Both the position numbers and the translations under genes were made by a program. Positions 2,567-18,037 of a stretch of 64,000 nt of DNA are shown here, in pieces. Under the pieces are notes generated by a model. That model searched no databases. It was given only the letters and a program-made list of their open reading frames with translations, and was not told the DNA's origin. Within the stretch, counting starts at the first letter, position 1; every line of letters starts with the position of its first letter. The stretch is from Luteolibacter ambystomatis. GTDB lineage: Bacteria; Verrucomicrobiota; Verrucomicrobiia; Verrucomicrobiales; Akkermansiaceae. The stretch is taken from assembly GCF_018137965.1 (NCBI RefSeq), contig NZ_CP073100.1, positions 1,054,001 through 1,118,000 on the forward strand, read 5' to 3'.

Positions 2567-3013
2567 ATGGAACCCAGCCAACGCCGGTTCGTCCAGAACC
2601 ACGAAGCCCTTTGCGAAACCAATGCGTGGACGCACAACGAATGGTTGTGCCGTCCGGACGTGGTGGCGGCGGAGAAGCTGCTGATGGTGCGCGCGACGAT
2701 GCCGCCGCACCATTGCCATCCCTTCCACGTCCATCCGCACCGCGAGGAGATCATCCATGTGGTTTCCGGTCGCGCGGAACAATGGGTGGGGGAGGAGTCC
2801 CGCATCCTCGGACCGGGCGAGATCGCGCACATTCCGCCGGGGATTCCGCATGGGACCTTCAATCCGTTCGATGAGACGCTGGTCTTCAACGCGATCCTGT
2901 CACCGGCCGTTCTGCCGGACGATCTGGCTGCGGATGAAGACCCACGCGAAGTCGCGGCGGAAGCGCCATGGAATACGATGCGCGATGGACGTCCGGAATG
3001 CCGGGTGCTTTGA
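2567..3013 (+). CDS. Single-domain cupin protein
   Basis: The protein has 148 residues from the ATG at 2567, 20 bases after the PEP-hydrolase stop. It carries a classical cupin_2 barrel: motif 1 is HCHPFHVHPHREEIIHVVSGRAE (several His and Glu metal ligands) and motif 2 is PGEIAHIPPGIPHGTFNP. The His/Glu set is complete, so it could bind a divalent metal. Small stand-alone cupins act as isomerases, dioxygenases or sugar-binding proteins, and the substrate cannot be told. The last ~30 residues (DDLAADEDPREVAAEAPW) are acidic and lie outside the barrel. Position suggests it works with the PEP-hydrolase-family protein in one pathway. A hairpin with a short T-run follows the stop. Confidence 0.85.
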   Translation: MEPSQRRFVQNHEALCETNAWTHNEWLCRPDVVAAEKLLMVRATMPPHHCHPFHVHPHREEIIHVVSGRAEQWVGEESRILGPGEIAHIPPGIPHGTFNPFDETLVFNAILSPAVLPDDLAADEDPREVAAEAPWNTMRDGRPECRVL

Positions 3014-3025
3014 AGATCCAATGAT

Positions 3026-3136
3026 GAGGTGGCGCGAGGCTCCTTCCTCGCTGATCCGGTGGATGATTCGCGACGATCATCCACCCCGTTTTAGAGCAAC
3101 GGCATGAGTCGTGAGGCGGGAGTCTCGCGCCACCTC
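3026..3136. repeat. Inverted repeat GAGGTGGCGCGAG... flanking the cupin terminator
   Basis: GAGGTGGCGCGAGGCTCC at 3026-3043 is mirrored by GGAGTCTCGCGCCACCTC at 3119-3136 with one mismatch over 18 bases. The ~75-base interior contains the 10-bp hairpin at 3058-3085. Together with the adjacent element at 3147-3351 it fills the gap between the cupin and pit genes. No coding potential was seen here. Confidence 0.6.
3058..3093 (+). terminator. Probable terminator after the cupin gene
   Basis: A perfect 10-bp stem (GGTGGATGAT at 3058-3067 with ATCATCCACC at 3076-3085) with an 8-base loop is followed by CCGTTTTA. It sits 45 bases after the cupin stop. The T-run is short, so termination may be partial. 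The hairpin also lies inside a larger inverted repeat (3026-3136). Confidence 0.5.
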
Positions 3137-3146
3137 GGGAAGTCTT

Positions 3147-3351
3147 GTAGCCGGAGTCGTGAGACTTGCCTCCGGCCATGCCAGTGAGCGGCTTCGCCGG
3201 GATTGGATTCAGTCGCTACCGCTCCTGCCGCATTCGGGCTGGGTGAACTTGCCCTCATTCCGATGCTCCGCTTTGGGTGGGTCGGGAGCGGACTGGACGT
3301 GCAAGCGACTCCGCATGTTCGCACAACCTGAAGTCTTACGACTCCAGCTAC
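3147..3351. repeat. MITE-like element, copy A (21-bp terminal inverted repeats)
   Basis: The left end (3147-3167, GTAGCCGGAGTCGTGAGACT + T) and right end (3331-3351) are inverted copies matching at 19 of 21 bases. The ~163-base interior has no credible ORF. The same 21-bp ends bound another element at 7235-7402 with an unrelated interior. The right end stops 7 bases from the pit stop codon. Two intergenic copies with shared ends and no coding capacity suggest a non-autonomous mobile or REP-like family. Confidence 0.65.
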
Positions 3352-3358
3352 GCAGAAA

Positions 3359-4813
3359 TCATCCTGCGATCTTCAGCCACAGCCACATCACCCCGTAGGC
3401 GACGCCACCGGCGGCAGGAAGCGTGAGCACCCATGCGCCGAGGATCTTCTTCACGATGCCGCCGTCGATGGCGCTGAAGCGCTTCGTTGCTCCCACGCCC
3501 ATGATGGCGGTGGTGATGGCATGGGTGGTGGAAACGGTCATGCCCATCTGGCCGGTTACGGCGAGCAGGGTGGCCGCGGTGGTTTCCGCGGCGAAGCCGT
3601 GGACTGGTTGCAGCTTCACCATCTTGTGACCCATGGTCTTGATGATGCGCCAGCCACCGGAGGCGGTGCCCGCGGCCATGATGAGCGCGCAGATGATTTT
3701 GATCCATGCGGGCACGTCCGGGGAAAGATCACGGACCTTGCCAGCGGCGGCGGCGAGCGGGTCCTTGCCGTCTTTGGAGGCCTTCGTCATTTCTCCTTCG
3801 AGAGTCTTGAGCCAATCGGTCGGCTTGCCTGCGACCATCGGGCCGAGGATCGGCACCTTCGGCATGAAGCGGGCGGCCTCCTTTTCAAGAGCCTGTTGGT
3901 GCGCCTGCTTCGCGCTCGTCCGCTCGCGTTCAGCGGCGGCGGCATCGCCATCCGCCTGATAGGCGATCGCGGCCAGCGCGTGGAAGGACTCCTTGAATTC
4001 GCCGGTCTGGAGCTTGTCCGCCTCGGTTGCGAGGATGGCGGCGACCTGGGGATCTTTCGAGCCCTTGAGGATCGCCTGGATCTGATGCTCGGCCACGGGG
4101 GACTTGTCCATTTTGAGGAAACCCATCCACGACGGCAGGTGCTCGAACGAACCCGCCGTGGTGGCGGTGACGAGCGCCAGCGTGATGATGCCCATCGTCT
4201 TCTGCGCATCGGCGAGGCCGTGGGCGAAACCCATGTAGCTGGCGCTGAAAATCTGGGCGCGTCCGAAGAAACGGTTCACCCACATCGGTTTCGCGTTTCG
4301 GAGGAGCGCGTAGAGGATCGTCATCACGATGAAGCCGCCGACCAGGCCGACCACCGGCGAGGTGAGCATCGGCCAGATCACCTTGTGAAGCACGCCCTCG
4401 GAGACGACCTTGCCGTCCTTGATCTTTTCGGCGGACCAGATGATTGCCTTCCAGTTGCCCTGTGAATTGGCGAGCGTGGCACCGCAGAGGCCTCCGACTA
4501 GCGCGTGGGTGGAACTGGAGGGCAGACCCAGCCACCAGGTGAGGAGATTCCATGAAATGCCGCCCACCAGCGCGCAAATGATGGTGCCGGTGGTGACGAA
4601 CTTGGCATCCACCAGACCGGACGACACGGTCTTCGCCACCGCATGGCCGATCAGCGCGCCGAAGAGGTTGGTGAACGCCGCGAGCATGATCGCCTGCCGC
4701 GGGGTGAGGACCTTGGTCGAGACGACCGTCGCGATGGAGTTCGCGGTATCGTGGAAACCATTGATGAACTCGAAGGCCAAAGCCACGAGGATCACGACGA
4801 TGATCAGCGTCAT
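3359..4813 (-). CDS. pit: PiT-family inorganic phosphate transporter
   Basis: The protein has 484 residues from the ATG at 4811-4813. An upstream ATG at 4867 would overlap the preceding gene by 44 bases and add a non-conserved polar tail, so the inner start is chosen. Two PiT signature halves are present: FEFINGFHDTANSIATVV near the N-terminus and PVHGFAAETTAATLLAVTGQ in the C-terminal half, with LPSSSTHALVGGLCGA and VSTTHAITTAIMGVGA as further conserved loops. Multiple hydrophobic segments surround a long hydrophilic central region (about residues 230-370), typical of bacterial PiT proteins with a cytoplasmic loop. It should import phosphate or metal-phosphate driven by H+ or Na+. The DUF47 gene lies 10 bases upstream on the same strand, a classic pit pairing. 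Confidence 0.92.
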   Translation of the reverse strand: MTLIIVVILVALAFEFINGFHDTANSIATVVSTKVLTPRQAIMLAAFTNLFGALIGHAVAKTVSSGLVDAKFVTTGTIICALVGGISWNLLTWWLGLPSSSTHALVGGLCGATLANSQGNWKAIIWSAEKIKDGKVVSEGVLHKVIWPMLTSPVVGLVGGFIVMTILYALLRNAKPMWVNRFFGRAQIFSASYMGFAHGLADAQKTMGIITLALVTATTAGSFEHLPSWMGFLKMDKSPVAEHQIQAILKGSKDPQVAAILATEADKLQTGEFKESFHALAAIAYQADGDAAAAERERTSAKQAHQQALEKEAARFMPKVPILGPMVAGKPTDWLKTLEGEMTKASKDGKDPLAAAAGKVRDLSPDVPAWIKIICALIMAAGTASGGWRIIKTMGHKMVKLQPVHGFAAETTAATLLAVTGQMGMTVSTTHAITTAIMGVGATKRFSAIDGGIVKKILGAWVLTLPAAGGVAYGVMWLWLKIAG

Positions 4814-4823
4814 GGCGGGCGCG

Positions 4824-5450
4824 TCAGGAGTTTTTGTAAGCGATCTGCTTGGCGATGTTGCCGACATCGCGGCAGCGGTCGAAGACCTTCTCCAGCAGGT
4901 CGTAGAGATTGGAGACGATCACCACGAGGAGGGTGTCGTGCTTGCCGCTGTAGAGGTCCTTCAGGCACTCCAGCATGAGCTTGTCGGCATCCCCTTCGAT
5001 CGTCTGCATGCGGTCGTTGAGCTCCTTCATGCGGACGATGTCCATGCCCCTGCGCAGCGCGTGGATCATCTCGATCACCAGGCCGGTGGCTTCATCCAGC
5101 ATTTCCGCGTGGCGGTGGAAATCGACGGAAGCAGCCTTGTCCGGACAGATCAGATAGCGCTCCACGAATTTCTCGACGGTCTTCGGGATCTTGTAGAGGG
5201 CGGTGGAGAGGGCCTCGATGTCCTCGCGCTCCAGGGCCGTCACGAAGGTTTTCACCAGCAGATCGCTGATTTCCTGGGTGATGGCCTTGTCCTTTTTGCG
5301 CATGCCGCCGAATTCATCGAGCGAGGGGGCGGGCTGGAGGCGCAGGATGCGGGTCAGACCGCCGATGCTCTGCTGGGCCTGCTCGGCGCTGGCGGTGAGC
5401 AGGTCGAAGAAACGGTCTTCTTTGCCGAAAAGGCGTTGGATGGAAATCAT
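4824..5450 (-). CDS. DUF47 / PhoU-like Pit accessory protein
   Basis: The protein has 208 residues from ATG 5448-5450 (MISIQRLFGKEDRFFDLL). A longer frame from 5498 would place a perfect CRP-type palindrome inside the coding region and lacks family similarity. It is all-helical, with EDRFFDLLTASAEQAQQS at the start and HAEMLDEATGLVIEMIHAL and ANKLMLECLKDLYSG-like segments (DADKLMLECLKDLYSG) later, as in the DUF47 (PhoU_div) family. DUF47 proteins sit directly upstream of pit in many bacteria and are thought to regulate Pit activity. The gap to pit is 10 bases, so the two form an operon. It diverges from pstB-phoU across a 182-base gap. Confidence 0.88.
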   Translation of the reverse strand: MISIQRLFGKEDRFFDLLTASAEQAQQSIGGLTRILRLQPAPSLDEFGGMRKKDKAITQEISDLLVKTFVTALEREDIEALSTALYKIPKTVEKFVERYLICPDKAASVDFHRHAEMLDEATGLVIEMIHALRRGMDIVRMKELNDRMQTIEGDADKLMLECLKDLYSGKHDTLLVVIVSNLYDLLEKVFDRCRDVGNIAKQIAYKNS

Positions 5451-5465
5451 GGGACGGGCGGCGAT

Positions 5466-5483
5466 TGTGACGAAATGGTCACA
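5466..5483. promoter_or_regulatory. Perfect CRP/FNR-type palindrome
   Basis: TGTGAC-GAAATG-GTCACA at 5466-5483 is an exact match to the TGTGA-N6-TCACA consensus of CRP. It lies 16 bases upstream of the DUF47-pit start and ~150 bases upstream of divergent pstB. The palindrome is seen directly; binding by a Crp/Fnr-family protein is inferred. So close to the start codon, it would more likely repress DUF47-pit than activate it. A second feature of this gap is a direct repeat GGAGGTCCGG at 5569-5578 and 5589-5598, spaced by 20 bases. Confidence 0.45.
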
Positions 5484-5632
5484 CGTGGCAAGCCGCACAA
5501 AGAGGAAAGTCTGGCAGATTACCGCCGCCAGCCACCGAGTTATGCCATTCGGGCCTCCCTTTACAACAGGAGGTCCGGCTGCTAACCGGGAGGTCCGGTC
5601 CGGATGCGTTCACCATTCATCCCTGATCGATC

Positions 5633-6526
5633 ATGATTCTCACCATGCCAGAAGCCCAGAAAACGACGCCGGTTTCGCCCACCGCGCCGGCCCAGACCCC
5701 GGCAGCCGCCGTGCCGGTCGCCCAGCCGTCCGCCGTCACTCCGGCTGCGAAGCCGGACGCCGGACCCACCGTCCCTGCCATTCAGGTCAAGGGGGTGGAT
5801 TTCTCCTACGGCTCCAACAAGGTGCTGAAGGATGTCACGATCGACATCCCCACCAACGAGGTCGTGGCCTTCATCGGCCCTTCCGGCTGCGGCAAGACGA
5901 CCCTCCTGCGCTGCTTCAACCGCATGAACGACCTCGTCCCCGGTGCCCGGGTGACCCGGGGCTCGATCATCATCGAGGGCGCGAACATCGCCGATCCCTG
6001 CATCGACCCGGTGCAACTCCGCCGCCACGTCGGCATGGTGTTCCAGAAGTCGAACCCCTTTCCGCAGAGCATCTACGACAACGTGGCCTACGGTCCCCGG
6101 ACCCTGGGCGAGAAGAACAAGAAGAAGCTCGATGAGATCGTGGAGAAATCCCTCCACCGCGCCGCGCTCTGGGACGAGGTGAAGGACCGCCTCGATGACA
6201 TCGCCACCGGTTTGTCCGGCGGCCAGCAGCAGCGCCTGTGCATCGCCCGTACGATGGCGGTGGACCCGGAAATCATTCTCATGGACGAGCCTTGCTCCGC
6301 GCTCGACCCCATCGCCACCGCGCACGTCGAGGATCTGATCCTTGAACTCAAGGAGCACTACACGATCGTGATCGTGACCCACAACATGCAGCAGGCGACC
6401 CGCGTCTCGGACCGCACCGCCTTTTTCTACCTCGGCGAGCTCATTGAATACGGTGATACGCGCCAAATGTTCGAGAACCCTTCCATAAAGCGCACCGAGG
6501 ACTATATTTCCGGCCGGTTCGGTTGA
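5633..6526 (+). CDS. pstB: Phosphate ABC transporter ATP-binding protein PstB
   Basis: The protein has 297 residues. Walker A ([19 protein letters not shown]) is near residue 83, the Q-loop region is [21 protein letters not shown], the ABC signature LSGGQQQR is near 194, and Walker B is [12 protein letters not shown] with a downstream switch His in VTHNMQQA. The NRMND and [16 protein letters not shown] blocks are specific to PstB. Residues 5-45 are an unusual Pro/Ala-rich extension ([20 protein letters not shown]) before the conserved core; an ATG at 5645 is an alternative start. PstB normally energises the PstSCA permease, but no pstS, pstC or pstA lies in this window, only phoU 12 bases downstream. 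They may be encoded elsewhere. Confidence 0.95.
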
Positions 6527-6538
6527 TACCTTCCCCAC

Positions 6539-7225
6539 ATGCAACAGCACATTCTCAAGGACTTTGATCACGCCATGACCACCCTCCGCGGGGAGGTGCT
6601 GACCATGGCCGGACTCGCCCGGTTGAACCTCGAACGCGCCATCCAGGCGTTGCTTGACCGAAATGTCGAGCTCGCGAACGCCGTCATCGCCGATGACAAC
6701 GAGGTGGACGAACTGGAGCGCCGCGTGGACCAGCTCGGCATGGACGTGCTCGTGCGCTTCCATCCGGTTGCCAGCGACCTGCGGCTGGTAGTGACCGCGA
6801 TGAAGATCTCGATGAACCTGGAGCGCATCTCCGATCACGCGGTGAGCATTTCCAAGCGCGCCCGCAAGCTGGCCGTGGGTCCGGAACTGCCGGACATCAA
6901 CCTGATCGAGCCGCTCTACACGCTGGCCGACCACCTGCTGCGTGACGCGATCTCCTCCTTCAGCGATCGCAATGCGAAGCTCGGCGAGTCCCTGCATGCC
7001 CGCGACAAGGAGCTGGACCGCCTGCACCGCGATGCCACGGCGACCTTCGGCTCCCGGATCGAGGAAACCGGCCGCAGCGAGGAATATCTGCACCTGATCC
7101 TGATCGTCCGCTCGCTGGAGCGGGTGGGGGACATGGCCGCGAACATCGGCGAGAACGCCGTGTTTCTGGATGTCGCCAAGGACATCCGCCACGAAGCCGG
7201 CCGCAAGGTCGCGGACGTGGGGTGA
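6539..7225 (+). CDS. phoU: Phosphate signalling protein PhoU
   Basis: The protein has 228 residues, about the usual PhoU length. It is made of two similar three-helix bundles with the PhoU motifs DDNEVDELERRVDQLGMDVLVRFHPVASDLR and NLERISDHAVSISKRA in the first half and SLERVGDMAANIGENAVFL in the second. The acidic ERxxDxxxN clusters bind metals in known structures. PhoU links the Pst transporter to the PhoR/PhoB sensor kinase system and restrains phosphate uptake. The gene follows pstB by 12 bases and is clearly co-transcribed. The transcript runs into the repeat element at 7235. Confidence 0.93.
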   Translation: MQQHILKDFDHAMTTLRGEVLTMAGLARLNLERAIQALLDRNVELANAVIADDNEVDELERRVDQLGMDVLVRFHPVASDLRLVVTAMKISMNLERISDHAVSISKRARKLAVGPELPDINLIEPLYTLADHLLRDAISSFSDRNAKLGESLHARDKELDRLHRDATATFGSRIEETGRSEEYLHLILIVRSLERVGDMAANIGENAVFLDVAKDIRHEAGRKVADVG

Positions 7226-7234
7226 GGTTTCCTT

Positions 7235-7402
7235 GTAGCTGGAGTCGTGAGACTTCAGACGGGGAAGATGCCATTTGATGCCGGAGGTTGCAGCTTGTCT
7301 GTGACCTCCGCATTGAATCGCCGCGGGGGGATGGGAAGAGAGAAGGGGGCCGCAGGGTGGAGGGTGGATTCACCCAGCCCGAAGTCTCACGACTCCGGCT
7401 AC
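7235..7402. repeat. MITE-like element, copy B (21-bp terminal inverted repeats)
   Basis: The left end (7235-7255) and right end (7382-7402) are inverted repeats matching at 20 of 21 bases and carry the same sequence as the ends of the element at 3147-3351. The 126-base interior differs from that copy. It lies between convergent phoU and the small membrane protein gene. The right end overlaps the stop codon of that gene: the TAG at 7399-7401 is part of the repeat end. No ORF was seen in it. Confidence 0.65.
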
Positions 7403-7833
7403 TTGACTGCGACGCACCGCCGCATCGCGAGGCTGTTCCAGACGGAGCCGCCGACGATCAGCAGGATGCCGCCGTTCAGCGCCCAACTCGTGGCGGGAGC
7501 GTAGCGGCGGACGAGAAACACCGTGGCGGCACCGGCCACGCTGATGAGCAGCGGGCCGTAGCCGACCTTGTTCGCCTGCTTTCCCAAGGAGATCAGGTGG
7601 AAACCAAGCATCGCCACCAACACCGGAAGCAGGGCCTCCATATACGGTGAGCCCGCAAGGCCCGCCAATCCCAGCGCGCTGCAATAGGCAGCCCAGCACA
7701 TCGGGCACTTCGGAAAGAAAGCCACGAGAATACTCAACACCAGCGTCCCAGCAGTGCGTGCGGACGATCGTGCGGCTGCCGGTACGGCGGTTTTTTCCAC
7801 CGCCGTGGTGGATTCGCAGGGACAAACCGGCAT
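7399..7833 (-). CDS. Small multi-pass membrane protein with CPMCW motif
   Basis: The protein has 144 residues from ATG 7831-7833, 14 bases after the DJ-1/PfpI stop. I do not recognise a named family with certainty. It starts MPVCPCES, has four probable membrane segments (TLVLSILVAFF; LLPVLVAMLGFHLISL; YGPLLISVAGAATVFLV; GGILLIVGGSVW) and the motif FFPKCPMCWAAYCSALG after the first. The paired Cys residues recall MerC-like metal transport proteins, and the neighbours are copper oxidases, so a metal-handling role is possible but unproven. The stop codon TAG lies inside the terminal repeat of the element at 7235-7402, so the insertion may have altered the C-terminus. Confidence 0.7.
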   Translation of the reverse strand: MPVCPCESTTAVEKTAVPAAARSSARTAGTLVLSILVAFFPKCPMCWAAYCSALGLAGLAGSPYMEALLPVLVAMLGFHLISLGKQANKVGYGPLLISVAGAATVFLVRRYAPATSWALNGGILLIVGGSVWNSLAMRRCVAVK

Positions 7834-7847
7834 GGAGCGGGATCCTC

Positions 7848-8570
7848 TCAGGCTTGGTTCCTGCCTCCGGACAGATAGGCGGCGACGACCTGTTCCAACG
7901 TCGCCGCACCTTCGCCGAACTGTTGGAAAAACGAGGCGAGGATATCCGGCGGAGCCGTCAGCGGTGAACCGGCGTTGTATGGCGGATCGGGCGCATACTG
8001 GTTCAGCAACTGTGCGTGCATCGCATCCGTGCTGCTGGAGATCGCGGCGATCACCGCGAGCGAGGCATCGAGGCCGGAACTGATGCCGCCACCGGTGATG
8101 CGGTTGCGGTCGATCCAATAGCGCGGGTATCCCGAGGCCAGCCGGACTCCGGAAAACAGCGTGAGAGATTGCTGGAACTGCCAGTGCGTGGTGGCGGTGT
8201 AGCCGTCCAGCAGGCCGGCGGCCGCGAGCAGGATGGCACCGGTGCATACGGAGCAGATGTAGCCCGCCTTCGGGCCTTCACGTTTCAGCCAGGCGAGTGT
8301 TTCCGATGATGCGGAAATCTGTTCGTTGAAACCGGAACCGAAGCCACCGGGCACCCAGGTGGCATCGGTGCCGGACAAGGTGGGAAGCGCGAGGTCGGCC
8401 TGGAGTTCGACCCCTTGCAGGCTCTTCATGAGGCCGGGTTCGGCTGCGGCAAGCACCGGGGTGATGCTGGTGGCACCGGCCACGCTGCTGAACATCGCGA
8501 GCGGTCCGCAGACATCGAGGATGTCGAAGTCCGGATACAGCGGGATGACAATGCGGTTGATCTTCGCCAT
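7848..8570 (-). CDS. DJ-1/PfpI family protein (isonitrile hydratase/GlxA-like)
   Basis: The protein has 240 residues from ATG 8568-8570 (MAKINRIVIPLYPDFDILDVCGPL); an in-frame ATG 13 codons upstream lacks family similarity. The class I amidotransferase-like fold is clear: TWVPGGFGSGF, then the nucleophile elbow SVCTGAILLAAAGLLDG with Cys109, and TTHWQ. The GGGISSGLDASLAVIAA block is typical of the isonitrile hydratase/GlxA group. No AraC domain follows, so it is an enzyme-like member and not a GlxA regulator. Members include isonitrile hydratases, glyoxalases and chaperones, and the substrate is open. It is downstream of tyrosinase (63-base gap) and probably in the same operon. Confidence 0.88.
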   Translation of the reverse strand: MAKINRIVIPLYPDFDILDVCGPLAMFSSVAGATSITPVLAAAEPGLMKSLQGVELQADLALPTLSGTDATWVPGGFGSGFNEQISASSETLAWLKREGPKAGYICSVCTGAILLAAAGLLDGYTATTHWQFQQSLTLFSGVRLASGYPRYWIDRNRITGGGISSGLDASLAVIAAISSSTDAMHAQLLNQYAPDPPYNAGSPLTAPPDILASFFQQFGEGAATLEQVVAAYLSGGRNQA

Positions 8571-8633
8571 GAGGTTGTTTCGGTGGGGAAGGAAGGGCAC
8601 TCCGCGCAAAGGAGGCGGAGTGCCCCGGCTGGT

Positions 8634-10175
8634 TCATTCGTTGCTCAACAAAAGCCGCACTTCGACGGATGGATTGCCCATCAGCTTGTTCGGGAAACGA
8701 TCGCCGACGAAACTCTTGTCCACCGGCTCGACCCAGACGCCGAGCTTGCCACCGGTGACTTCCTCCAGCGGCAGCTCGAAGTCGAAGTGAACCACCGCGT
8801 TCTCCACGCAGTTCTCGCACTTCTCGGCTTCGTTCGGCTGGAAGAACGCCTTCGAGGCGATGGTCTTGCCGTCCTTCTGAAGATGCACCGAGAAACTGCC
8901 CGGGATCTTCAATCGGTTCAGGCCGAGCACGCGCACGTCGACGAGGTTCGGCTTCACTTCGAATTTCTGCGAGGCGAGGGCGCTGCGCAGGGTCTTGGTT
9001 TGGAAAACGGATTCCACGAGCGGCTGGGTCTTGGGTTCTTCGTAGTCCACGTCAAGGCTCGTCACCGAGTTGATGATCGAGAGCGTGGTGAGGTTGAGCG
9101 GATCGGTGGAGAAGGGAGCCAGTTTTTCCAGAATCGGCACGGTAAAGATCTGGTAGCTGAGCGGGTCCTTGGCCTTGTCGATGGTGCTGAGCAGGCCGTT
9201 GAGATCGGTGGCCTGCATGCTCTTCTGCCATTTCCAGAACAGACGGTCCCAGTTGCAGTGGAAGAAGAAGAAAATCGGATCGAACGCGGCGACGTTCTGG
9301 TCGGCCATGGTATTTCCGATGGAAACGTGGCCGCCATCGTGTGCGGCGATGATGGTGTTGTAAGGAGCGCCGGCGAAATAGCCGTGGAAGTCCTCCCAGT
9401 CGGTCTTGGTCAGCGCGCGGTTGATGTCATCGGTCACCTCGTACTGGATGAGATTCGCGGCGATGGTCGCGTCATCGAAGCGCTCGGTGACGTAACCTTT
9501 TTTGTAACTTCCACCGATGTCCTGTGGCAGCGTGTATTTGTCGAATGGCGGTTGGTTGAGCACATCCGGCAGCGGGGTGGTGATGTCCCAGTAGGGCAGC
9601 GTGACATTCTCGCAGCCGGGGATCGAGCGCATGGCATTCTCGAAGCCGAGCAGGTAGGCGCGGTGCCACGGGTTGTAGCCGGGCGCGTGGTGCTGGCAGA
9701 AGAAGCGCGGCGGCGAGCCGGTGCCGGGCAGCCAGTGGATGCCCGCCTGCAGGAAGAAGCCGTTCGGATCGGTGGGGTCCTTTGCGATCATGCCCGCGAA
9801 GGCTTTCTTCACCAGCGCGAGTTCGTCCGTGGAGAGCGTGGTGATGTCCTTGCGGATGCGCGAGGCTTTCGTCTCGACGCCTTCGGTGAGCAGGCGGAAG
9901 CCGCCGACGGTAGGGGCGTTGGTTCCCTTCGGACAATCGTTGGTCATCCAGTTCAGGAAGGTCTCCACCCAGGCGGACGGCCATGGGTTGTTCGGCGGCA
10001 TGCTGCCGCTGGCGACTTGGCCGTAGATGATACTCGAGTTGTCCTTGACCACATCGTAGATGGAAAGGTCGAGGCCTTGGCTGCGCATGTGGTCGATATC
10101 TTCCTGGGTGAAGAGGTGGCGGATATCGGAATACCAGGTGGGATTGGCGATGGGAGCGGATGGATTGGTTGGCAT
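8634..10175 (-). CDS. Tyrosinase-family type 3 copper oxidase
   Basis: The protein has 513 residues from ATG 10173-10175. Both copper sites are complete: CuA by His147 (GIHWLPG), His162 (FFCQHHAP) and His171 (PWHRAYLLGFE), and CuB by His279 and His283 (AAHDGGHVSIG) and His306 (DPIFFFFHCNWDRLFWKW). Cys160 lies two residues before His162, the C-x-H spacing that forms a thioether link in fungal tyrosinases. No signal or Tat peptide is seen, so it may be cytoplasmic or need a partner for export. After residue ~400 a beta-rich C-terminal domain (SFSVHLQKDG...) resembles the polyphenol-oxidase tail domain. It should oxidise mono- or diphenols to quinones. It lies downstream of a multicopper oxidase gene, separated by the repeat at 10214-10389. 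Confidence 0.92.
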   Translation of the reverse strand: MPTNPSAPIANPTWYSDIRHLFTQEDIDHMRSQGLDLSIYDVVKDNSSIIYGQVASGSMPPNNPWPSAWVETFLNWMTNDCPKGTNAPTVGGFRLLTEGVETKASRIRKDITTLSTDELALVKKAFAGMIAKDPTDPNGFFLQAGIHWLPGTGSPPRFFCQHHAPGYNPWHRAYLLGFENAMRSIPGCENVTLPYWDITTPLPDVLNQPPFDKYTLPQDIGGSYKKGYVTERFDDATIAANLIQYEVTDDINRALTKTDWEDFHGYFAGAPYNTIIAAHDGGHVSIGNTMADQNVAAFDPIFFFFHCNWDRLFWKWQKSMQATDLNGLLSTIDKAKDPLSYQIFTVPILEKLAPFSTDPLNLTTLSIINSVTSLDVDYEEPKTQPLVESVFQTKTLRSALASQKFEVKPNLVDVRVLGLNRLKIPGSFSVHLQKDGKTIASKAFFQPNEAEKCENCVENAVVHFDFELPLEEVTGGKLGVWVEPVDKSFVGDRFPNKLMGNPSVEVRLLLSNE

Positions 10176-10213
10176 GACGGGCTGTTGGAATAAGAGGAGG
10201 TGTGGTGTCTCTG

Positions 10214-10389
10214 ATATGGAGTGCGGCGAGCTATCGCCGCTTTGGGTGCTGGAGAGAATCGACGGGAGTTGAGCGGAACGATGGAATGGATGTCTGAACC
10301 AGCGGTGAGGCCGGTTCGCGAGCGCAGCTATTCCTCCCGGCGATGGCCCGCCTCCGCTCAAAGCGGCGATGGCTCGCCGCACTCCATAT
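10214..10389. repeat. MITE-like element with 30-bp terminal inverted repeats
   Basis: The left arm at 10214-10243 begins ATATGGAGTGCGGCGAGC and the right arm at 10360-10389 is its inverted copy; 29 of 30 bases pair. The interior is ~116 bases without an ORF. It sits between the multicopper oxidase stop (10400) and the tyrosinase start (10175). The ends differ from those of the 3.1 and 7.2 kb elements, so this is a second family. As RNA it would fold into a long hairpin between two genes of a possible operon. Confidence 0.65.
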
Positions 10390-10399
10390 TCAAATAGTC

Positions 10400-12751
10400 T
10401 TACTCCGGTTCTTCCACCGAGGCGGTGGCCTTGGTGTCGGTGTCGGCCTTGGCGGGCATCTGCTCGAGCAGTCCGGCGATGTTCATGTAGGGGCTGGCCC
10501 CGGTGGTGCCCCACGCGACCTTGCCCTTTTCATCGATCACGAAGGTGCCGTGCGCGATCTCCGAGCCACGGGTGCAACCGTAGGCGGCGAATGCCTTGCC
10601 ATCCGGATCGGCGAGGATCGGGAAGGGCGCGGGCGAACCTTCCAACGCGGTCTTCAACGAGGTGGCATCGTCGGAGGTGATTCCGACCACGCCCACGCCC
10701 TTCGCTTTGAACTGCTCGTAGAGCGCGGTGAACTCCGCCACCTGGCGCGAGCAATGTGAGCAGCCGTGGCCTTTGAAGAGGAACACCACGTGGCGCTGCC
10801 CGGCGAAGTCGCTCTCGTTGTAAACCTTGCCCGCACCATCCGGCCGGCTGAACGCCGGGGCGCTCACACCGGTCTTCAATCCCGGCGCGTTGTTGGAGGC
10901 GACGGGTGCCTTCGGGTCCTTGATGTCCACGAGCTGCATCATGCCTTGGTCCTCGTGATCGAGGATGTGGCAGTGCTGCACGAAGGTGCCGATGAAGTCG
11001 GTGTACTTGGTGCGGAACTTCACGGTCCCGTTGTTAGGCACCCAGATGGTGTCACGCCACACCGGGCCGCCGGTGAGCTGTTCCACCTGCTTGCTCTTCG
11101 GATCGTTCGGATTCTCCGGTCCCATGATCGACGTGACCTCGAAGGGATTCACGTGGATGTGGAACGGATGGCCGGTGTTGATGCCACCGCCGTTGCGGAC
11201 TTCCACGGTCCATTCGTCGGTATTGCCCAGCGAGAGTTCCTTGGCCTCGTCCATGTTGAACGACTTGCCATCGATGGTGAAGACCACGCCGCCGGTCGCG
11301 GGTAGGATGCCGTAGGTGGCGGTCTGGGGTGCATCGATCTTCGCATTCACCAGCGTGGGCAGGCGGAACTTCGCCATCTCGCCATCGGTCGGCAGTTTCA
11401 TGCTGACCGGCGTGCCCTCGACCACGATGCGGGCGATGTACTTGAGAGGCTCGCCCTGGCCATCGATGCCGCTGGCGGTGGCCTGGTCCACGAGCACGTA
11501 TTCGCCGGGTTTGTCCGGAGCCTTCACCAGCACGTCGGAACGGTAGCCGGGCAGGAGCTGGATGACGTCCTTCTGCACCGACTTGCCGAGCGCGAGTCCA
11601 TCCACGGCGATCTCGTTGAAGGGGATGCCCTTGCTGCCATCGATATTCGTGATCTGGAGGTCGATCTGTTCACGTTGGCCGCTGTCCACCACACGCCAGC
11701 GCTCCACCTGGCCGGGGGCCATTCGGATCACGGGAAGCTGCACGCCGTTCACGGTGGTGTAGCGGCCGAGGGTTTCCCAATCGCCGGGGCCGAAGATGTA
11801 GCCGGCGAGCTTTTCCTCGATGATGCCTTCCGGGAAATTGAAGGTCACGGTGCCACCATTGCCATCATCCAGCGTGTTCTTGTAGATGTAGGGGATCTGG
11901 TTGAGCACCATCACGCGTTCCTTCGCGGCCTTCACCGCCGGGACTTCGTCGAGATCGCCCTCGATGATGAGCGCGCCGGACATACCGCTGGCGACATTGC
12001 CCGCCGTGGAGCCGTGGCGATGGGCGTGATACCAGTAGGTGCCGCAGGTGTGATCCTTCGGGATCACGATCTCATAGTCCTGCGTGGCACCGGGTCCGAT
12101 CTCGATCAGGACGTTGTCGCTGATGCCGTTCGGCGAGACATGGAGGCCGTGGGTGTGGAGGTTGGTGGTGTTGAAATCGTGAAGCGTGTTCATCGAGTCC
12201 TTCTGCCACGGCTGCGTGGGAAGGTTGTTCTTCACCGTGATGCGCAGCGTGTCGCCGGGCTTGGCGCGCAGGGTGGGGCCGACGAGATGGCCGTTGTAGG
12301 AGCGGAGATAGACCGGATCGCTGCCGATGAAGTTCTTCGCATAGGTGGCCACCAGTTCGGCGGTGAGCACGCCGTTGTGGGAGCGCAGTTCCTCGGGATC
12401 GGTATAGCCATTGAGCGTCTGGCGGGCGACGGAGGCGCGCTGCGGGGAGGGCAGGTTCGCTTCCAGCTCGAGCTTCTCCAGTTGCGGGAGGCTCAGATCG
12501 TTGGAAAACTTCGGCGTGGCCTTGAGGGGGCCGGGCGTTTCGGTGGCCTGCGTCCGGGCGAGGCGCTGCCATTTGTTGGCGAGCTGCTTCCACGCCTTGT
12601 CCACGTCGGCGCGCTCCTTCACGAAGTTACGTCCGGCATCGGCGTCGTCCTTGGGCGGGTTGTTGTCCTGGGCGCTGGCGGACCACACCGGCAGCAGGAC
12701 GGCGGCGAGGATGAGGTGGTCCCGGAGACGGGGAAGGGGTGTGCGATACAT
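10400..12751 (-). CDS. Multicopper oxidase fused to a C-terminal AhpC/TSA-type redoxin domain
   Basis: The protein has 783 residues. A signal peptide covers residues 1-28 (ILAAVLLPVWSASAQ). Three cupredoxin domains follow. The copper ligands are visible: THGLH (His199/201/204 region), YWYHAHRHG (His242/244/246), HPFHIHV (His528/531/533), and the type 1/3 block HCHILDHEDQGMM (His593, Cys594, His595, His599, Met604/605). From about residue 625 a thioredoxin-fold redoxin begins (SAPAFSRPDGAGKVYNESDFAG, FLFKGHGCSHCSRQ with Cys664 and Cys667, then TFVIDEKGKVAWG). The N-terminal half resembles laccase/CueO-type enzymes that oxidise phenols or Cu(I) with O2. The fused domain may handle peroxide or keep Cys/Cu reduced. 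It is the first gene of a minus-strand set with tyrosinase and DJ-1. Confidence 0.92.
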   Translation of the reverse strand: MYRTPLPRLRDHLILAAVLLPVWSASAQDNNPPKDDADAGRNFVKERADVDKAWKQLANKWQRLARTQATETPGPLKATPKFSNDLSLPQLEKLELEANLPSPQRASVARQTLNGYTDPEELRSHNGVLTAELVATYAKNFIGSDPVYLRSYNGHLVGPTLRAKPGDTLRITVKNNLPTQPWQKDSMNTLHDFNTTNLHTHGLHVSPNGISDNVLIEIGPGATQDYEIVIPKDHTCGTYWYHAHRHGSTAGNVASGMSGALIIEGDLDEVPAVKAAKERVMVLNQIPYIYKNTLDDGNGGTVTFNFPEGIIEEKLAGYIFGPGDWETLGRYTTVNGVQLPVIRMAPGQVERWRVVDSGQREQIDLQITNIDGSKGIPFNEIAVDGLALGKSVQKDVIQLLPGYRSDVLVKAPDKPGEYVLVDQATASGIDGQGEPLKYIARIVVEGTPVSMKLPTDGEMAKFRLPTLVNAKIDAPQTATYGILPATGGVVFTIDGKSFNMDEAKELSLGNTDEWTVEVRNGGGINTGHPFHIHVNPFEVTSIMGPENPNDPKSKQVEQLTGGPVWRDTIWVPNNGTVKFRTKYTDFIGTFVQHCHILDHEDQGMMQLVDIKDPKAPVASNNAPGLKTGVSAPAFSRPDGAGKVYNESDFAGQRHVVFLFKGHGCSHCSRQVAEFTALYEQFKAKGVGVVGITSDDATSLKTALEGSPAPFPILADPDGKAFAAYGCTRGSEIAHGTFVIDEKGKVAWGTTGASPYMNIAGLLEQMPAKADTDTKATASVEEPE

Positions 12752-13073
12752 GGATTCAGTGGTTGGGGATGGATGAGGAGATCAACGGAAGACGAACCGG
12801 ATGGCCGGTCGGGAAAAATGGGATCCGATATGGCCGATTTTGATGTGTCGTTGAGAATGTGGCCGATTTTGATGATATGTTTTAAGTCGTCTATCGGAGG
12901 TGATTGGATCTTGTGGTGCGAATAGTTTGGGATGCTTGTTTTGTCGATATAAAATGAGGTATTGGCTTTGGATTGATGTGTTATGGGTGATGCAAGTGAT
13001 TGATGGTGACGATTTGTTAGATTGTCTGTAAAGTTATGTCCGATTTTGGGTCCTTTCTCCGGAGGCAGGGCGT
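12752..13073. other. AT-rich intergenic region with repeated TGGCCGATTTTGATG
   Basis: This ~320-base gap upstream of the multicopper oxidase is clearly richer in A/T than its surroundings. TGGCCGATTTTGATG occurs at 12831-12845 and again at 12860-12874 (29-base spacing), a variant (TGTCCGATTTTGGG) lies near 13036, and TGGCCGATTTTATG at 13471-13484. It should contain the multicopper oxidase promoter. I see no convincing gene; a minus-strand open frame across it has a composition unlike the neighbouring proteins. The repeats may be regulator sites or a remnant of foreign DNA. Confidence 0.5.
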
Positions 13074-13325
13074 ATGGAGCCGCTCGCCGCATCCGCACCT
13101 GTTTCCGCCCGTTCCAGGCCGACAAGCACCGGTGCCTCTCTTGAAGACCGGTTCGCCAACCTGATGAAAGCCGGGGGATCAGCCGCCGCTCTTGCCGCCG
13201 CGAAGGCCCTGACCGGCAAGGAATGCGAGAATGCGATCTCCTTCCTTTTCAGCTACGGCACGAACAAGGATCCGGAATTCGTCGCCCGGGAACTGGCTGA
13301 TTCCGGGTTCCCGACGGTTTGCTGA
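13074..13325 (+). CDS. Small hypothetical protein
   Basis: An 83-residue frame (MEPLAASAPVSARSRP...) starts 8 bases after a good ribosome-binding sequence, GGAGG, at ~13061. The N-terminal 20 residues are Ser/Ala/Pro-rich; the rest could form short helices (SLEDRFANLMKAGGSAAALAAAKALTG, CENAISFLFSYG) and ends in FPTVC. No domain is recognised. It lies between an AT-rich stretch and a candidate small RNA, and its base composition returns to the GC-rich norm of the window. The RBS and composition favour a real gene, but short length leaves doubt. Confidence 0.45.
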   Translation: MEPLAASAPVSARSRPTSTGASLEDRFANLMKAGGSAAALAAAKALTGKECENAISFLFSYGTNKDPEFVARELADSGFPTVC

Positions 13326-13464
13326 ACCTGTCGGGGGCATCCGGGCGAATGAATGGCAAAATCAGGATTCCAAGAGCTCGTTGGAGGAGACCGGATTTGG
13401 GTTCGGAAACCAACAAATCGGAGGGTGTTACCCAAAATAAATCCAATATTTCTCCTAACAAGGG

Positions 13465-13619
13465 TTGATGTGGCCGATTTTATGCCTATGGTGTAGGTCA
13501 AGTCACCGGGATCCCCGACCGATGACCATCCTCCCCGAAAAAGGAAGGCCTGTCTGTTCCAGACCTTTCATTTGATCGGCGGGGTCCGGCTTCCCCCCGG
13601 ACCCCGCCGATTTTTTCTT
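13465..13619 (+). ncRNA. Candidate small RNA (or 17-codon leader) with own promoter and terminator
   Basis: A sigma70-like promoter is visible: TTGATG (13465-13470), 16 bases, TATGGT (13487-13492), giving a start near 13500. The transcript would end at the strong terminator 13576-13619, so it would be ~120 bases. An internal hairpin (AAGGCCTG with CCAGACCTT, one mismatch) lies just before the terminator. It also contains a 17-codon frame (ATG 13522, stop 13573-13575) that ends exactly where the terminator stem begins. No protein gene follows on the plus strand (HNH is convergent), so a free-standing sRNA fits better than an attenuator. Function unknown. Confidence 0.4.
13576..13619 (+). terminator. 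Strong rho-independent terminator
   Basis: A perfect 14-bp GC-rich stem (TCGGCGGGGTCCGG with CCGGACCCCGCCGA, 13576-13589 and 13597-13610), a 7-base loop and a TTTTTTCTTT tail. It belongs to the transcript starting near 13500 and could also stop readthrough from the small gene at 13074-13325. Confidence 0.85.
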
Positions 13620-13726
13620 TGGGAGCCGGGCCGATGCCGGAGTGGCGGCTGGCTGCGCCGTTAGGCGAAAGGCCGCCTTACGGGAGGACCGGACTCCAAG
13701 CTACAGTGTGTGCGGTAGTTTGTGCC

Positions 13727-14338
13727 TCACGCGGAAAGGCGGATCGCGCCGGATTCCGGATCGAGAAAGTGCGCCCAGCTGGCATCGCCGAAGCCGTTTT
13801 CCCGCAGGCCGAAGAGCGGCTTCCAGCGCGGAGCCACCGGCTTGTTCAGCGGATGCATGTCCGCCTCATGGGGGAGCTTGTTCGCCTTCCGCGTGTTGCA
13901 GCGGATGCAGGAGGTCACGATGTTCTCCCAAGTGGTGCGTCCGCCTTTCTGACGCGGGATGACGTGGTCGAGGTTGAGCTGGACCTCCGGCAGCGAGCGG
14001 GCGCAGTACTGACAGGTGAACTGGTCCCTCAGGAACACGTTCCGGCGGGTGAATTTCACCTCCAGCCGCGGTATTTTCTCATACAATCCCAGCACGAGGA
14101 TCGCCGGGACCTGCATGGCCAGTCTCACGGTATGGATCAATTCGGTGCTGGTGGAGCGGGCGGAATATTCGATCCAAGAGTCCAGATCGTGGGTCTGGAA
14201 CTTCTCATCCCCGTCCGTCTGGACGACGCGGGCATGCCCCACGCAGAGCAAGTGGAGGGCCCTGCGGACGCTACAAGTCTGGACCGGCTGCCAGAACCGG
14301 TTCAGCACCAACACGGGATGGTCGAGGAGCGAATTCAT
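13727..14338 (-). CDS. HNH endonuclease family protein
   Basis: The protein has 203 residues from ATG 14336-14338, preceded by GGAAAGGA as ribosome-binding site. A much longer open frame continues upstream on this strand but is antisense to the heme-protein gene and is rejected. A short N-terminal region (PVLVLNRFWQPVQTCSVRRAL) is typical of the bacterial group of stand-alone HNH proteins. The HNH core has a zinc finger CxxC (Cys109, Cys112), LDHV (Asp124, His125), WENIV (Asn139) and CIRC (Cys144, Cys147), followed by KANKLPHEADM. It should cut or nick DNA in a metal-dependent way; its role in these bacteria is not known. No restriction-modification partner is adjacent. Confidence 0.9.
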   Translation of the reverse strand: MNSLLDHPVLVLNRFWQPVQTCSVRRALHLLCVGHARVVQTDGDEKFQTHDLDSWIEYSARSTSTELIHTVRLAMQVPAILVLGLYEKIPRLEVKFTRRNVFLRDQFTCQYCARSLPEVQLNLDHVIPRQKGGRTTWENIVTSCIRCNTRKANKLPHEADMHPLNKPVAPRWKPLFGLRENGFGDASWAHFLDPESGAIRLSA

Positions 14339-14479
14339 GCATCCTTTCCGAACAATCGCCCGGAAGCTAACAAAGTCATCCGGCTCGGCAACTGAAAAGG
14401 GCGCGGGATGGGCACGGATCAAAATAGCGCATTTCGCAACACTCCGCCTGCGGTTTGTTGGTTGAAATAGGGTCCCGAA

Positions 14480-17400
14480 ATGCCCGTAATCACGCCCCAT
14501 ATGCATTGCTGCTTGACGCGTTCGCTGGTTTGCCTGGCCCTTCTGACTCCCATCGCGATGGCGGAGGAAGCGGATTCCCTGGGTCCCGTGCAGGGGGATT
14601 CCACCCTGACCGCCCCGCCCGGGGTGACCTACCACCTCGCGGGGGACGCGAAGACGAACCGCATCCTGTCCCCGACCGCGATCGCCTTCGATGAGGCGGG
14701 CGCGCTCTATGTGGCGGAGACCCACCGCTTCCGTTTCGGCGTGGAGGACAACCGCGAGCACCTCTACTGGTATCTGGACGACATCGCTTCCCAGACCAAT
14801 GCCGACCGCTTGGCAATGCACGAGAAGTGGAAGGGCAAGAAGTCGATCAAGGAGATGACGGAGAAGTCCGAGGAGATCCGCAAACTGGAGGATCTGGATC
14901 ACGACGGCGTTTATGAAAAGGCGGGCACTTACGCGGACAAGTTCAATGACGTGCTCGATGGCACCGCCGCGGGCGTGATGGCCTATGAGGGCACGGTTTA
15001 CTTCGCCTGCATCCCGAAGGTGTGGGCGCTGCGCGATACCAAGGGCACCGGCACGGCGGATGTGCGGGATGTGATCCAGGACGGCTTCGGCGTGCGCGTT
15101 TCCTTCTCCGGCCATGACATGAACGGCTTCGCGCTGGGGCCGGACGGCCGCATCTACGGTACCGTGGGCGACCGTGGTTTCCACGTCGAAACGAAGGAGG
15201 GCCGCAAGTATCCCTCGCCGGACCGTGGCGCGATTTTCCGCTTCGATCCGGACGGCTCGAATTTCGAGGTGATCCATACCGGCCTGCGCAATCCGAAGGA
15301 GATCGCCTTCGACGAGCGCGGCAATCCGATCTCCGTGGACAACAATTCCGACCAGGGCGACAAGGCACGCGTCGTCTATATCGTGGAAGGTGCGGATTCC
15401 GGTTGGACGATGGAGCACCAGGCGCTGCATTCGTTCCACCGCCAGATCGGGCTGGAGAATCATCCGGACAACCGCTGGATGGTGGAGAAGATGTGGGAGC
15501 CGCAGAACGACGCGCAACCGGCCTATATCATCCCGCCGGTGGCGAATCTCACCAATGGTCCCAGCGGTCTCGCCTACTATCCCGGTACCGGCTATCTCCA
15601 GAGCGAGGAGGGACGTTTCCTGATCTGCGATTACAAGGCCTCGGCTCCGACCTCCGGCATCTGGTCGTTCAAGGTGGAGCCGTCCGGCGCGGGCATGAAG
15701 ATGACCAACGCACGCAAGGCGGTGTGGGGCGTGACGGCGACGGATGTGGAATACTCGTGGGATGGCAAGCTCTACGTGGCGGACTTCAAGGGCGGCTGGA
15801 CCGCGCATGACGATGGCCGGGTGTTGTATCTCGATGCGGGCAAGGACACCGCCAAGGCCAAGGAGGCGGGGGAAACCGCGAAGCTGATCAAGGAAGGCTT
15901 CGACCAGCGTTCGTCCGCGGACCTCGCCGCGCTGCTGCATCACCCGGACATGCGGGTGCGGTTGCGCGCACAGTACGCGCTTTCCCGGAAGCCGGACGCG
16001 CTCGCGCAATTCAAGAAGGCGACCGCTTCCAGCGATCAGATCGAACGTCTGCACGGTGTGTGGGGGCTCGGTATTCTCGCCCGCCTCGGTGGTGGTGCTC
16101 TGCATCCCACCGGCAAGGCTCCCGCTCCGAACGCTGAGCTGCGCAAGGCCGCCTCGACCGAACTTGCGGCGCTGCTCAAGCACGCCGATCCGGAAGTAAA
16201 GGCGCAGGCGGTGAAGGCGCTGGAGGAAGGTTCTCTGGATGGGACGAAGCTGCCGCTCGGCGATCTGGTGGTGGATGCCTCGCCGCGTGTGCGGATGTTC
16301 GCCGCCATTGCCGCGGGCAAGCTCCATGCCACGCAGGTGATTCAGCAGGTGTTGAAGCTGCTGGAGGAAAACGCGGACAAGGACCCGTATCTCCGCCACG
16401 CCGGTGCGTATGCCCTTCAACTGCTGGCGAAGAATCCGGCGGAGCTGGCCGCGCTCAAGTCGAATGCCAGCCCGCACGTGCGCCTCGCAGCGGTAGTCGC
16501 GCTGCGCCGGATGAAGGACCCCGCGGTGGCGGCCTTCCTGAAGGATGCCGACCAGGCGGTTGTGGAAGAAGCGATCCGCGCGATTCACGATGAAGGCATT
16601 GAGCCGGCACGTCCGGCGGTGGCCGCCTTGCTCGATGATGCCACGCTTGCCGAGCGCAAGCCCTTCATGCAGCGCCGCCTCATTCACAGCGCTTTCCGCG
16701 TGGGTGGCGTGGAGAATGCGAAGCGGCTTCTGACCGTGGCCTCCACGCCTGCCCTGCCGGAAGCGGTCCGCCGCGAGGCTCTGCGCCTGATTTCCGTGTG
16801 GCCGGAGCCGCCGCTTGTCGATCAATCGCTCGGTCGCATCGCGCCGTTGCCGAAGCGGAACCTTGATGAGATCCGCCCGCTGCTGTCCAGCTCCATGCCC
16901 GCGCTGATGAAGGTGGAGGACACGCTGGATGACGCGTTCGATCTGGTGCTGAAGTTCAAGTTCTCCGTCGAGGGGCTCGATGATGCCGCCCTGCGTGCGA
17001 TCACGCTGAAGGATGGCATCCCCGGCACCGCTCGTGCCGGAGCGCTCGCACTCTATGCCGCCCGCAAGCCCGCCGATCTTTCCGAACACCTGGCGAAGTT
17101 GATGGGGCAGGGGAATGACAGCCTCGCGCTGGAGGCGATGAAGTTGCTGGTGGCACAGTTTCCGAAGGAAGCGGTGAAGCCGTTGCTCGCCGCCACCATT
17201 GCCAAGAGCGGTCCGCGCGCGCAGGCGGCGTGGAAAAATCTCGCGGGCGTGCAGGACCCGGAAGTGGCGAAGGCGATCATTGATCAGATCGGCACGCTGC
17301 GTCAGAACGGCGGTGTTTCACCATCGGCTCTGGAACTGCTGGCCGCCGCACGGGGTCGTTCCGAGCCGGAGGTGAAGAAGACGCTCGCGGACTACGAGGC

Positions 17401-17947: not shown

Positions 17948-18037
17948 TCCGCGGGTAGCGGGCGGCGTTTGCGATTTCTTGATTCTTCCGCTTGCGCCGG
18001 GCGGGATGTCCCACCAACATCCCGCCCGCAACGTAAC

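Follow-up and report, generated by a model that had tools for sequence, protein, structure and literature searches.

Bacterial gene clusters that combine a multicopper oxidase (MCO) with a tyrosinase are already published. In S. meliloti GR4, with the cluster mcoA, a hypothetical gene and mepA, strains deleted for either mcoA or mepA form less pigment, and the double mutant is non-melanogenic (PMC7010606). The mcoA/mepA melanin is copper-induced, and the double mutant is more sensitive to Myxococcus predation (p 0.044; "not very noticeable" in the authors' words) (PMC7010606). Operons of LodA group ID contain genes for an MCO and a tyrosinase, a lodA-like gene, a small gene of unknown function (138-142 aa) and a lodB-like gene (PMC4417212). 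In Marinomonas mediterranea the tyrosinase PpoB1 has a dedicated membrane copper-transfer protein, PpoB2 (PMC2855505), and in Streptomyces the caddie protein MelC1 is associated with the tyrosinase active site and has a role in copper loading (PMC11608171). Here we analyse a block of four minus-strand genes from Luteolibacter ambystomatis, located in a stretch of 64,000 nucleotides (contig NZ_CP073100.1, positions 1,054,001 to 1,118,000; "the window"). The genes encode an MCO with a C-terminal redoxin domain (MCO-redoxin), a tyrosinase, a DJ-1/PfpI superfamily protein (PfpI) and a cysteine-containing membrane protein (CPxCW protein, CPMCW in the window).

The four genes are a version of a recurring module, patchy in distribution, whose parts are found side by side in genomes of the window's own taxonomic order, of Bacteroidota and of rhizobia. 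From the gene set, its recurrence, gene fusions and intact copper-ligand motifs, all obtained by sequence comparison, we consider the block to be probably a variant of a recurrent MCO-tyrosinase copper-oxidase module that would oxidise phenols, probably to a melanin-like pigment. The variant lacks a linked LodA gene and also lacks WPN, our label for a small WPNGIDQ-type protein. An earlier, sequence-only reading had proposed a module that turns phenols into quinones or polymers and had known of no described system with this set. This reading is supported in part: the module recurs, and the proposed chemistry fits S. meliloti mcoA-mepA (PMC7010606). The claim of novelty is not supported, in view of that cluster and the LodA group ID operons (PMC4417212), nor is the suggested link of PfpI to carbonyl repair (see below). 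Thus, the MCO-tyrosinase core is known, whereas the PfpI-CPxCW pair was not found in the literature searched: neither protein appeared with MCO and tyrosinase in open-access titles or abstract starts among the matches listed, and "pfpi" has 0 occurrences in the main text of PMC4417212.

Two of the three S. meliloti cluster genes are present in the window, with MCO and tyrosinase in one cluster in both cases (PMC7010606). The MCOs share 37% identity over 549 residues. However, the window adds the MCO-fused redoxin, PfpI and the CPxCW protein and is without WPN, and the two tyrosinases are alike around the copper sites only. The LodA group ID operons show the same MCO/tyrosinase pairing, but lodA, lodB and the small gene are missing from the window block. 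M. mediterranea likewise has a tyrosinase with its copper-transfer protein and a laccase (PpoA) in one organism (PMC2855505); there, laccase and tyrosinase are not in one operon, and the window CPxCW protein is not PpoB2.

All four minus-strand reading frames of the sequence-only reading are present, three with Pfam domains, and its gaps of 63 and 14 nt between the last three genes are correct. A gap of 224 nt between MCO and tyrosinase had gone unmentioned. The coordinates are listed in Table 1. Scans for sigma-70 promoters (1 site, 1.2 expected) and terminators (7, 5.3 expected) were uninformative. The adjoining genes at window positions 3359-7225 are phosphate transport/PhoU/PstB-like and apparently unrelated; here and below, genes named "by eye", as these were, are named without a family search.

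Table 1. Coordinates of the four genes, two domains and the repeat elements in the window.
Feature	Position	Strand	Size or residues	Remarks
MCO-redoxin (multicopper oxidase with C-terminal redoxin)	12751-10400	minus	783 aa	Pfam and ligand motifs
Redoxin (AhpC-TSA) domain of MCO	10511..10870	minus	residues 628-747	CSHC at residue 664
Tyrosinase	ATG 10175 to 8634	minus	513 aa	Pfam, copper-site His
Tyrosinase C-terminal domain	8634..8975	minus	residues 401-513	CENC at 453-456
DJ-1/PfpI superfamily protein, isocyanide-hydratase-like	ATG 8570 to 7848	minus	240 aa	
CPMCW (CPxCW) membrane protein	ATG 7833 to 7399	minus	144 aa	
Dispersed inverted-repeat element	10214-10389	none	176 nt	31-nt arms 10214-10244 and 10359-10389, 97% complementary
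AAAATCGGMCAYA copies upstream of MCO	12829, 12858, 13035, 13469 (12829..13481)	minus		4 of the genome's 11 exact copies

To describe the distribution we use G labels for comparison genomes (G000, window genome) and L labels for fetched loci; the genome samples are drawn and incomplete. Tyrosinase matches (E <= 0.001 throughout) were found in 2/117 genomes of the family and in 0/13 other genomes of the same genus compared. In the window's phylum 5/387 genomes matched (three-row profile), and in Bacteroidota 16/395 (four-row profile). The MCO was found in 8/249 genomes of the order (E <= 1e-30); in seven of them a tyrosinase lies within a few kb of the MCO or is fused to it, and the eighth is a 4-kb contig. 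When a common query set was applied (E <= 1e-5) and one locus was counted per genome, at least one other module part was present at 9/16 Bacteroidota tyrosinase loci (PpoB2 as the sole part in two of the nine) and at 3/5 in the window's phylum. Note that a second Fulvivirga tyrosinase (L064), which lacks partners, was left out of these counts. Among 21 loci fetched for other reasons (5-20 kb, non-random), none contained MCO, tyrosinase or WPN (0/10, 0/7 and 0/4). A scan of genome contigs, which finds close relatives only, returned a single locus in Fulvivirga marina, a member of the Bacteroidota (55% identity in the best segment). The best of 24 plasmid records for the tyrosinase came from R. 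leguminosarum (40% across 98% of the query length). Thus, conservation of gene order, proposed earlier as a check, was obtained in part: parts recur in other phyla and accompany the MCO in the order, but the distribution within the family is patchy and several neighbours' tyrosinases are distant. A total lack of conserved neighbourhood, which had been named as a point that would speak against the module, is not what we observe.

The composition of the loci varies. G019 (tyrosinase 76% identical) has MCO-redoxin, tyrosinase and a CPVCW protein but no PfpI. In Fulvivirga, WPN, MCO, PfpI and tyrosinase are followed by a tyrosinase-lid domain as a gene of its own, a KCSLC membrane protein and an integrase-like gene (by eye). 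The order is PfpI, WPN, CPFCW and tyrosinase in G854, and CusA/CzcA-type RND pump, HlyD-like protein (by eye), tyrosinase and CPMCW in G492, while G318, G901 and G962 contain MCO-redoxin and tyrosinase only. In R. leguminosarum, tyrosinase and MCO share one strand, and the opposite strand carries WPN, PfpI, PpoB2 and a second, short gene of the tyrosinase family. R. ruizarguesonis has MCO, tyrosinase, LodA/GoxA, WPN (138 aa) and an FAD protein; its PfpI and its PpoB2, the latter damaged, lie on the opposite strand. Between the LodA/GoxA and FAD genes, this WPN fits the place and size of the small group ID gene (PMC4417212). S. meliloti GR4 (pRmeGR4b) has MCO, WPN and tyrosinase. A plasmid locus, L008, carries tyrosinase and WPN with no MCO at E <= 1e-5. 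Two sequence irregularities were noted: ppoB2 and PfpI of R. ruizarguesonis appear damaged at their 5' ends (L018 10950-11750), and the MCO-redoxin match of G962 is split over two frames (L128 9158-10919), by frameshift or assembly error.

A further arrangement was found in G928, from the same order as the window. Here, in sequence, MCO-redoxin, WPN, PfpI, tyrosinase, a LodA-like protein (LodA_N 6.1e-57, LodA_C 2e-42), a LodB-like flavoprotein and a CPxCW protein (59% identical to that of the window over 114 residues) are encoded on one strand, so that a run of the LodA group ID type is joined with MCO-redoxin, PfpI and CPxCW. In G889, WPN, MCO and tyrosinase are fused in a single frame of 1822 aa (L129 5090-10558), with a weak redoxin region below the cut-off (E 0.009). 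The fusion is followed by a PfpI 73% identical to that of the window over 231 residues, with a decayed CPxCW remnant directly 3' of it, in the order seen in the window. The C-terminal part of the fusion is Ala-rich and, by eye, repeat-like.

These two loci already contradict the idea that the four genes are chance neighbours or a mobile-element jumble, to which we attach a negligible probability. The patchy distribution (2/117 family genomes), the integrase-like gene 3' of the Fulvivirga locus, transposases around the rhizobial loci and a repeat element inside the block would fit such an origin. However, the grouping recurs in three phyla, with fusions, and is absent from the 21 control loci.

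The repeat element lies in the 224-nt gap. Its half-site GAGTGCGGCGAGCnATCGCCGC occurs 23 times in the 5.32-Mb genome (<=2 mismatches), and 22 of these form 11 head-to-head pairs with 137-166 nt between half-site starts. It resembles a REPIN or MITE. Subtraction of its length (224 - 176) leaves 48 nt, equal to the MCO/tyrosinase gap in G019. Because 48 nt remain without the element, as in G019, the genes were probably spaced as in an operon until the repeat inserted, an argument from arithmetic and not proof. In comparison with the LodA group ID operons, MCO and tyrosinase are adjacent on the same strand, 48 nt apart with the repeat subtracted, and may form one operon. Upstream of the MCO, four copies of AAAATCGGMCAYA fall within 653 nt (naive, post hoc chance ~7e-14), and one copy is also found upstream of the G019 MCO (L006 6055). 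This sequence may be an operator or a mobile-element remnant or end; no transposase was recognised by eye at its seven other sites.

The MCO is a three-domain MCO/laccase by its Pfam matches (Cu-oxidase_3, Cu-oxidase and Cu-oxidase_2), followed by AhpC-TSA/Redoxin. Its copper ligand motifs are intact (HTHG 199, WYHAHRHG 240, HPFHIH 528 and HCHILDHEDQGMM 593), the ligand histidines are invariant across aligned relatives, and the N-terminus resembles a Sec signal peptide (by eye). Separate CSHC redoxin genes that follow an MCO near a tyrosinase in L056 and L058 support a reading of the MCO-redoxin fusion as functional.

An MCO of this kind could alternatively act in copper detoxification as a CueO/CopA-like cuprous oxidase, with melanin serving only as a copper sink and the CPxCW protein moving copper. 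We regard this as unlikely. The MCO does score partially with the NCBIfam CueO and CopA models, but at 106.9 of 525 and 60 of 479 bits it falls short of both cut-offs. A CusA/CzcA-type pump stands beside the G492 tyrosinase-CPxCW pair and beside the LodA-like gene of the window genome, and the S. meliloti pigment is copper-induced; on the other hand, the MCO there contributes to melanin itself (PMC7010606), and cuprous oxidation needs neither a tyrosinase nor PfpI.

That LodA-like gene belongs to an unlinked GoxA-type/GoxB-type pair ~0.55 Mb from the block (1617105-1620161), which scores below the NCBIfam cut-offs (375 of 750 and 212 of 400 bits). The GoxA-type quinoprotein and the GoxB/LodB-like maturase follow the CusA/CzcA-type RND pump (L105 3553-10162; G000:C1 1613552-1620161). 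The pair raises the option of a LodA-type amino-acid oxidase system, in which quinones together with peroxide or aldehyde products would form an antimicrobial or cross-linking mixture. Such a role would agree with the LodA-like and LodB-like genes in the G928 run and with the MCO and tyrosinase of the group ID operons (PMC4417212). Nevertheless, the LodA-like gene is unlinked here, no LodA match was obtained in G019, G854 or G475 with the query used, and the stretch of 13.6 kb from S. meliloti GR4 contains no LodA. We consider this option quite improbable for the window block.

The tyrosinase belongs to PF00264 (1.4e-36; 127.3 bits, cut-off 22.6). Its copper-site histidines (147, 162, 171, 279, 283 and 306) are invariant in alignments of 6 and 8 sequences, and Cys160-x-His162 is present. 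Tyrosinases of the CxxC type were found at the loci of the window, G019, Fulvivirga, R. leguminosarum, G492 and G854, six in all, and in Fulvivirga a second copy of the C-terminal domain forms a separate gene of 119 aa without CxxC. By description, this domain may be compared with the Streptomyces MelC1 caddie and the polyphenol oxidase C-terminal lid, domains that are linked to the active site and are either fused or free-standing (PMC11608171). The N-terminal part of the window tyrosinase (~80 residues) resembles small stand-alone frames adjoining an MCO (L022 9117-9452) or a PfpI (L131 724-900), with further matches in L053 and in plasmid match H24.

The PfpI has a DJ-1_PfpI Pfam match (1.2e-14) and stays below the NCBIfam cut-offs for DJ-1 glyoxalase III (TIGR01383, 22.3 vs 131 bits) and PfpI deglycase (TIGR01382, 15.6 vs 139 bits). 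In the PDB it is nearest to 3ewn, a ThiJ/PfpI protein (1.3e-36), and to the isocyanide hydratase InhA (6.7e-34), the best-matching PDB family bearing a named enzyme function. The sequence features of isocyanide hydratases are present, namely the SVCTG motif shared with InhA, which includes Cys109-Thr110, and Asp19 on the N-terminal side; we take these three residues to be the catalytic residues of the hydratase. Thus, PfpI resembles isocyanide hydratase more than the carbonyl-repair DJ-1 of the sequence-only reading. Note that the gene setting differs from that of InhA.

Could PfpI then be an isonitrile hydratase that helps to tailor a small phenolic or isonitrile metabolite? Its best PDB relatives and the retained Cys-Thr point in this direction. 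However, in module PfpIs Cys109 and Asp19 are invariant (7/7) while Thr110 is kept in 2/7, with Cys-Thr replaced by Cys-Glu, Cys-Leu or Cys-Val in the other 5/7. In addition, the G019 locus lacks PfpI and no biosynthetic core gene was recognised by eye at 3000-18000, which makes tailoring highly improbable.

Members of the window PfpI's family are common elsewhere too, with 248 matching plasmid records, four of which were opened and had no other module part nearby. The tree does not show a single origin of the module PfpIs: five group together (87/98), long branches separate the two from Bacteroidota, and two changes of the module label are required. On a Streptomyces plasmid (L135 1-3645), a generic PfpI is preceded by genes for a heavy-metal P-type ATPase and a copper chaperone of the PCu(A)C type. 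Human DJ-1 is reported to transfer copper to SOD1 in vitro via Cys106, although the fly study reporting this found that both act independently (PMC9405364). A copper-carrier role of PfpI by analogy is only a lead.

The CPxCW protein contains Cys4, Cys6 and K-C-P-M-C-W at 42-47; Cys4, Cys6 and FPKCPxCWA are invariant in six sequences. It had no match at E <= 0.1 in Pfam, where it was searched without its first residue, or in NCBIfam. The structure model, which has five helices, is of low confidence (pLDDT 65, and below 50 for residues 1-28) and had no PDB fold match at E <= 0.001. PpoB2 (PF09948) did not match this protein, nor anything in the window genome at E <= 0.001. MerC (PF03203, cut-off 27.6 bits) did not match the window protein, and three of four relatives scored 15.1-18.5 bits, below the cut-off.

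A four-row CPxCW profile (E <= 0.001) matched 7/395 Bacteroidota genomes, four of them strongly (E < 1e-40), and 16/387 genomes of the window's phylum, two strongly. All six genomes with strong matches carry a tyrosinase match, in four cases directly beside the CPxCW gene; these four sequences are those from which the profile was built. The co-occurrence in Bacteroidota (4/4 strong matches within 16 tyrosinase genomes) is weaker than it appears, because two of the four helped to build the profile and the other two share neighbours. Of 21 weaker places 10 were fetched, none with a module neighbour (E <= 1e-5). Weaker relatives in G000 (L098 9545-10671) and G019 (L099 8987-10017) adjoin a thioredoxin-like gene (DUF899-like, by eye), which suggests another setting for the wider family.

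PpoB2 was found in 2/21 tyrosinase genomes, beside the tyrosinase in both; strong CPxCW matches occur in six, and no genome has both. PfpI also stands beside PpoB2 in two rhizobial loci. In R. leguminosarum the two genes share an overlap of 4 nt, and in the window PfpI lies 14 nt from the CPxCW gene. By analogy, the CPxCW protein may stand in for PpoB2.

Several observations weigh against our reading of the block as a module variant and against the copper-supply role of its smaller proteins. Four tyrosinases (G928, G318, R. ruizarguesonis and S. meliloti GR4) align to that of the window around the copper sites only (23-54% over 24-285 residues) and lack CxxC, so that only for MCO-redoxin, PfpI and CPxCW can the same parts be said to recur in a strict sense. 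No partner was detected (E <= 1e-5) at 7/16 tyrosinase loci in Bacteroidota and 2/5 in the window's phylum, two of these nine being 4-5-kb contigs. Conversely, the MCO occurs without a tyrosinase in 4/12 plasmid loci read (L020, with WPN; L022; L024; L025), the 12 being a choice from long lists (1016 plasmid records match the window MCO, 107 match WPN). WPN has no match in the window genome (E <= 1) and is also missing from the G019, G492, G318, G901 and G962 loci. A signal peptide was recognised by eye in the MCO and in neither tyrosinase nor PfpI. The AlphaFold model of the tyrosinase (five rows) is unusable (pLDDT 55, pTM 0.40). Two strong CPxCW genes (G559, G764) are distant from module genes, in genomes that carry tyrosinase-LodA-WPN-LodB. 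The non-overlap of PpoB2 and CPxCW is insignificant by itself (0.6 shared genomes expected), and the R. leguminosarum PpoB2, which also adjoins the second short tyrosinase-family gene, may serve that one instead.

For the module variant that we favour, we propose the following course of events. The tyrosinase would oxidise phenols to o-quinones, the MCO would oxidise phenols or catechols as well, and the products would polymerise to a melanin-like, copper-binding material, as reported for S. meliloti McoA/MepA (PMC7010606). The remaining parts may support the two oxidases. The redoxin domain could maintain a reduced state of the exported copper site or of its cysteine, and the CxxC domain of the tyrosinase might act as a lid and copper-loading aid. 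The CPxCW protein may supply the tyrosinase with copper in place of PpoB2, and PfpI might aid copper hand-over or remove a reactive product. A bolder version, also drawn by analogy and in our estimate doubtful, would see in the CPxCW protein a membrane family, not described before, that takes the place of PpoB2 in delivering copper to tyrosinases, and in the coupled PfpI a cytosolic carrier that brings copper to the tyrosinase, comparable to DJ-1 and SOD1 in vitro; with the redoxin they would make up a line that loads copper into a pair of melanin-making oxidases.

In conclusion, the module joins items that the papers cited here treat apart, the S. meliloti melanin cluster, the LodA group ID operons and the PpoB2 chaperones, through interchangeable parts. 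PfpI and the CPxCW protein are concrete candidates for the copper supply of bacterial tyrosinases that have neither PpoB2 nor caddie proteins.

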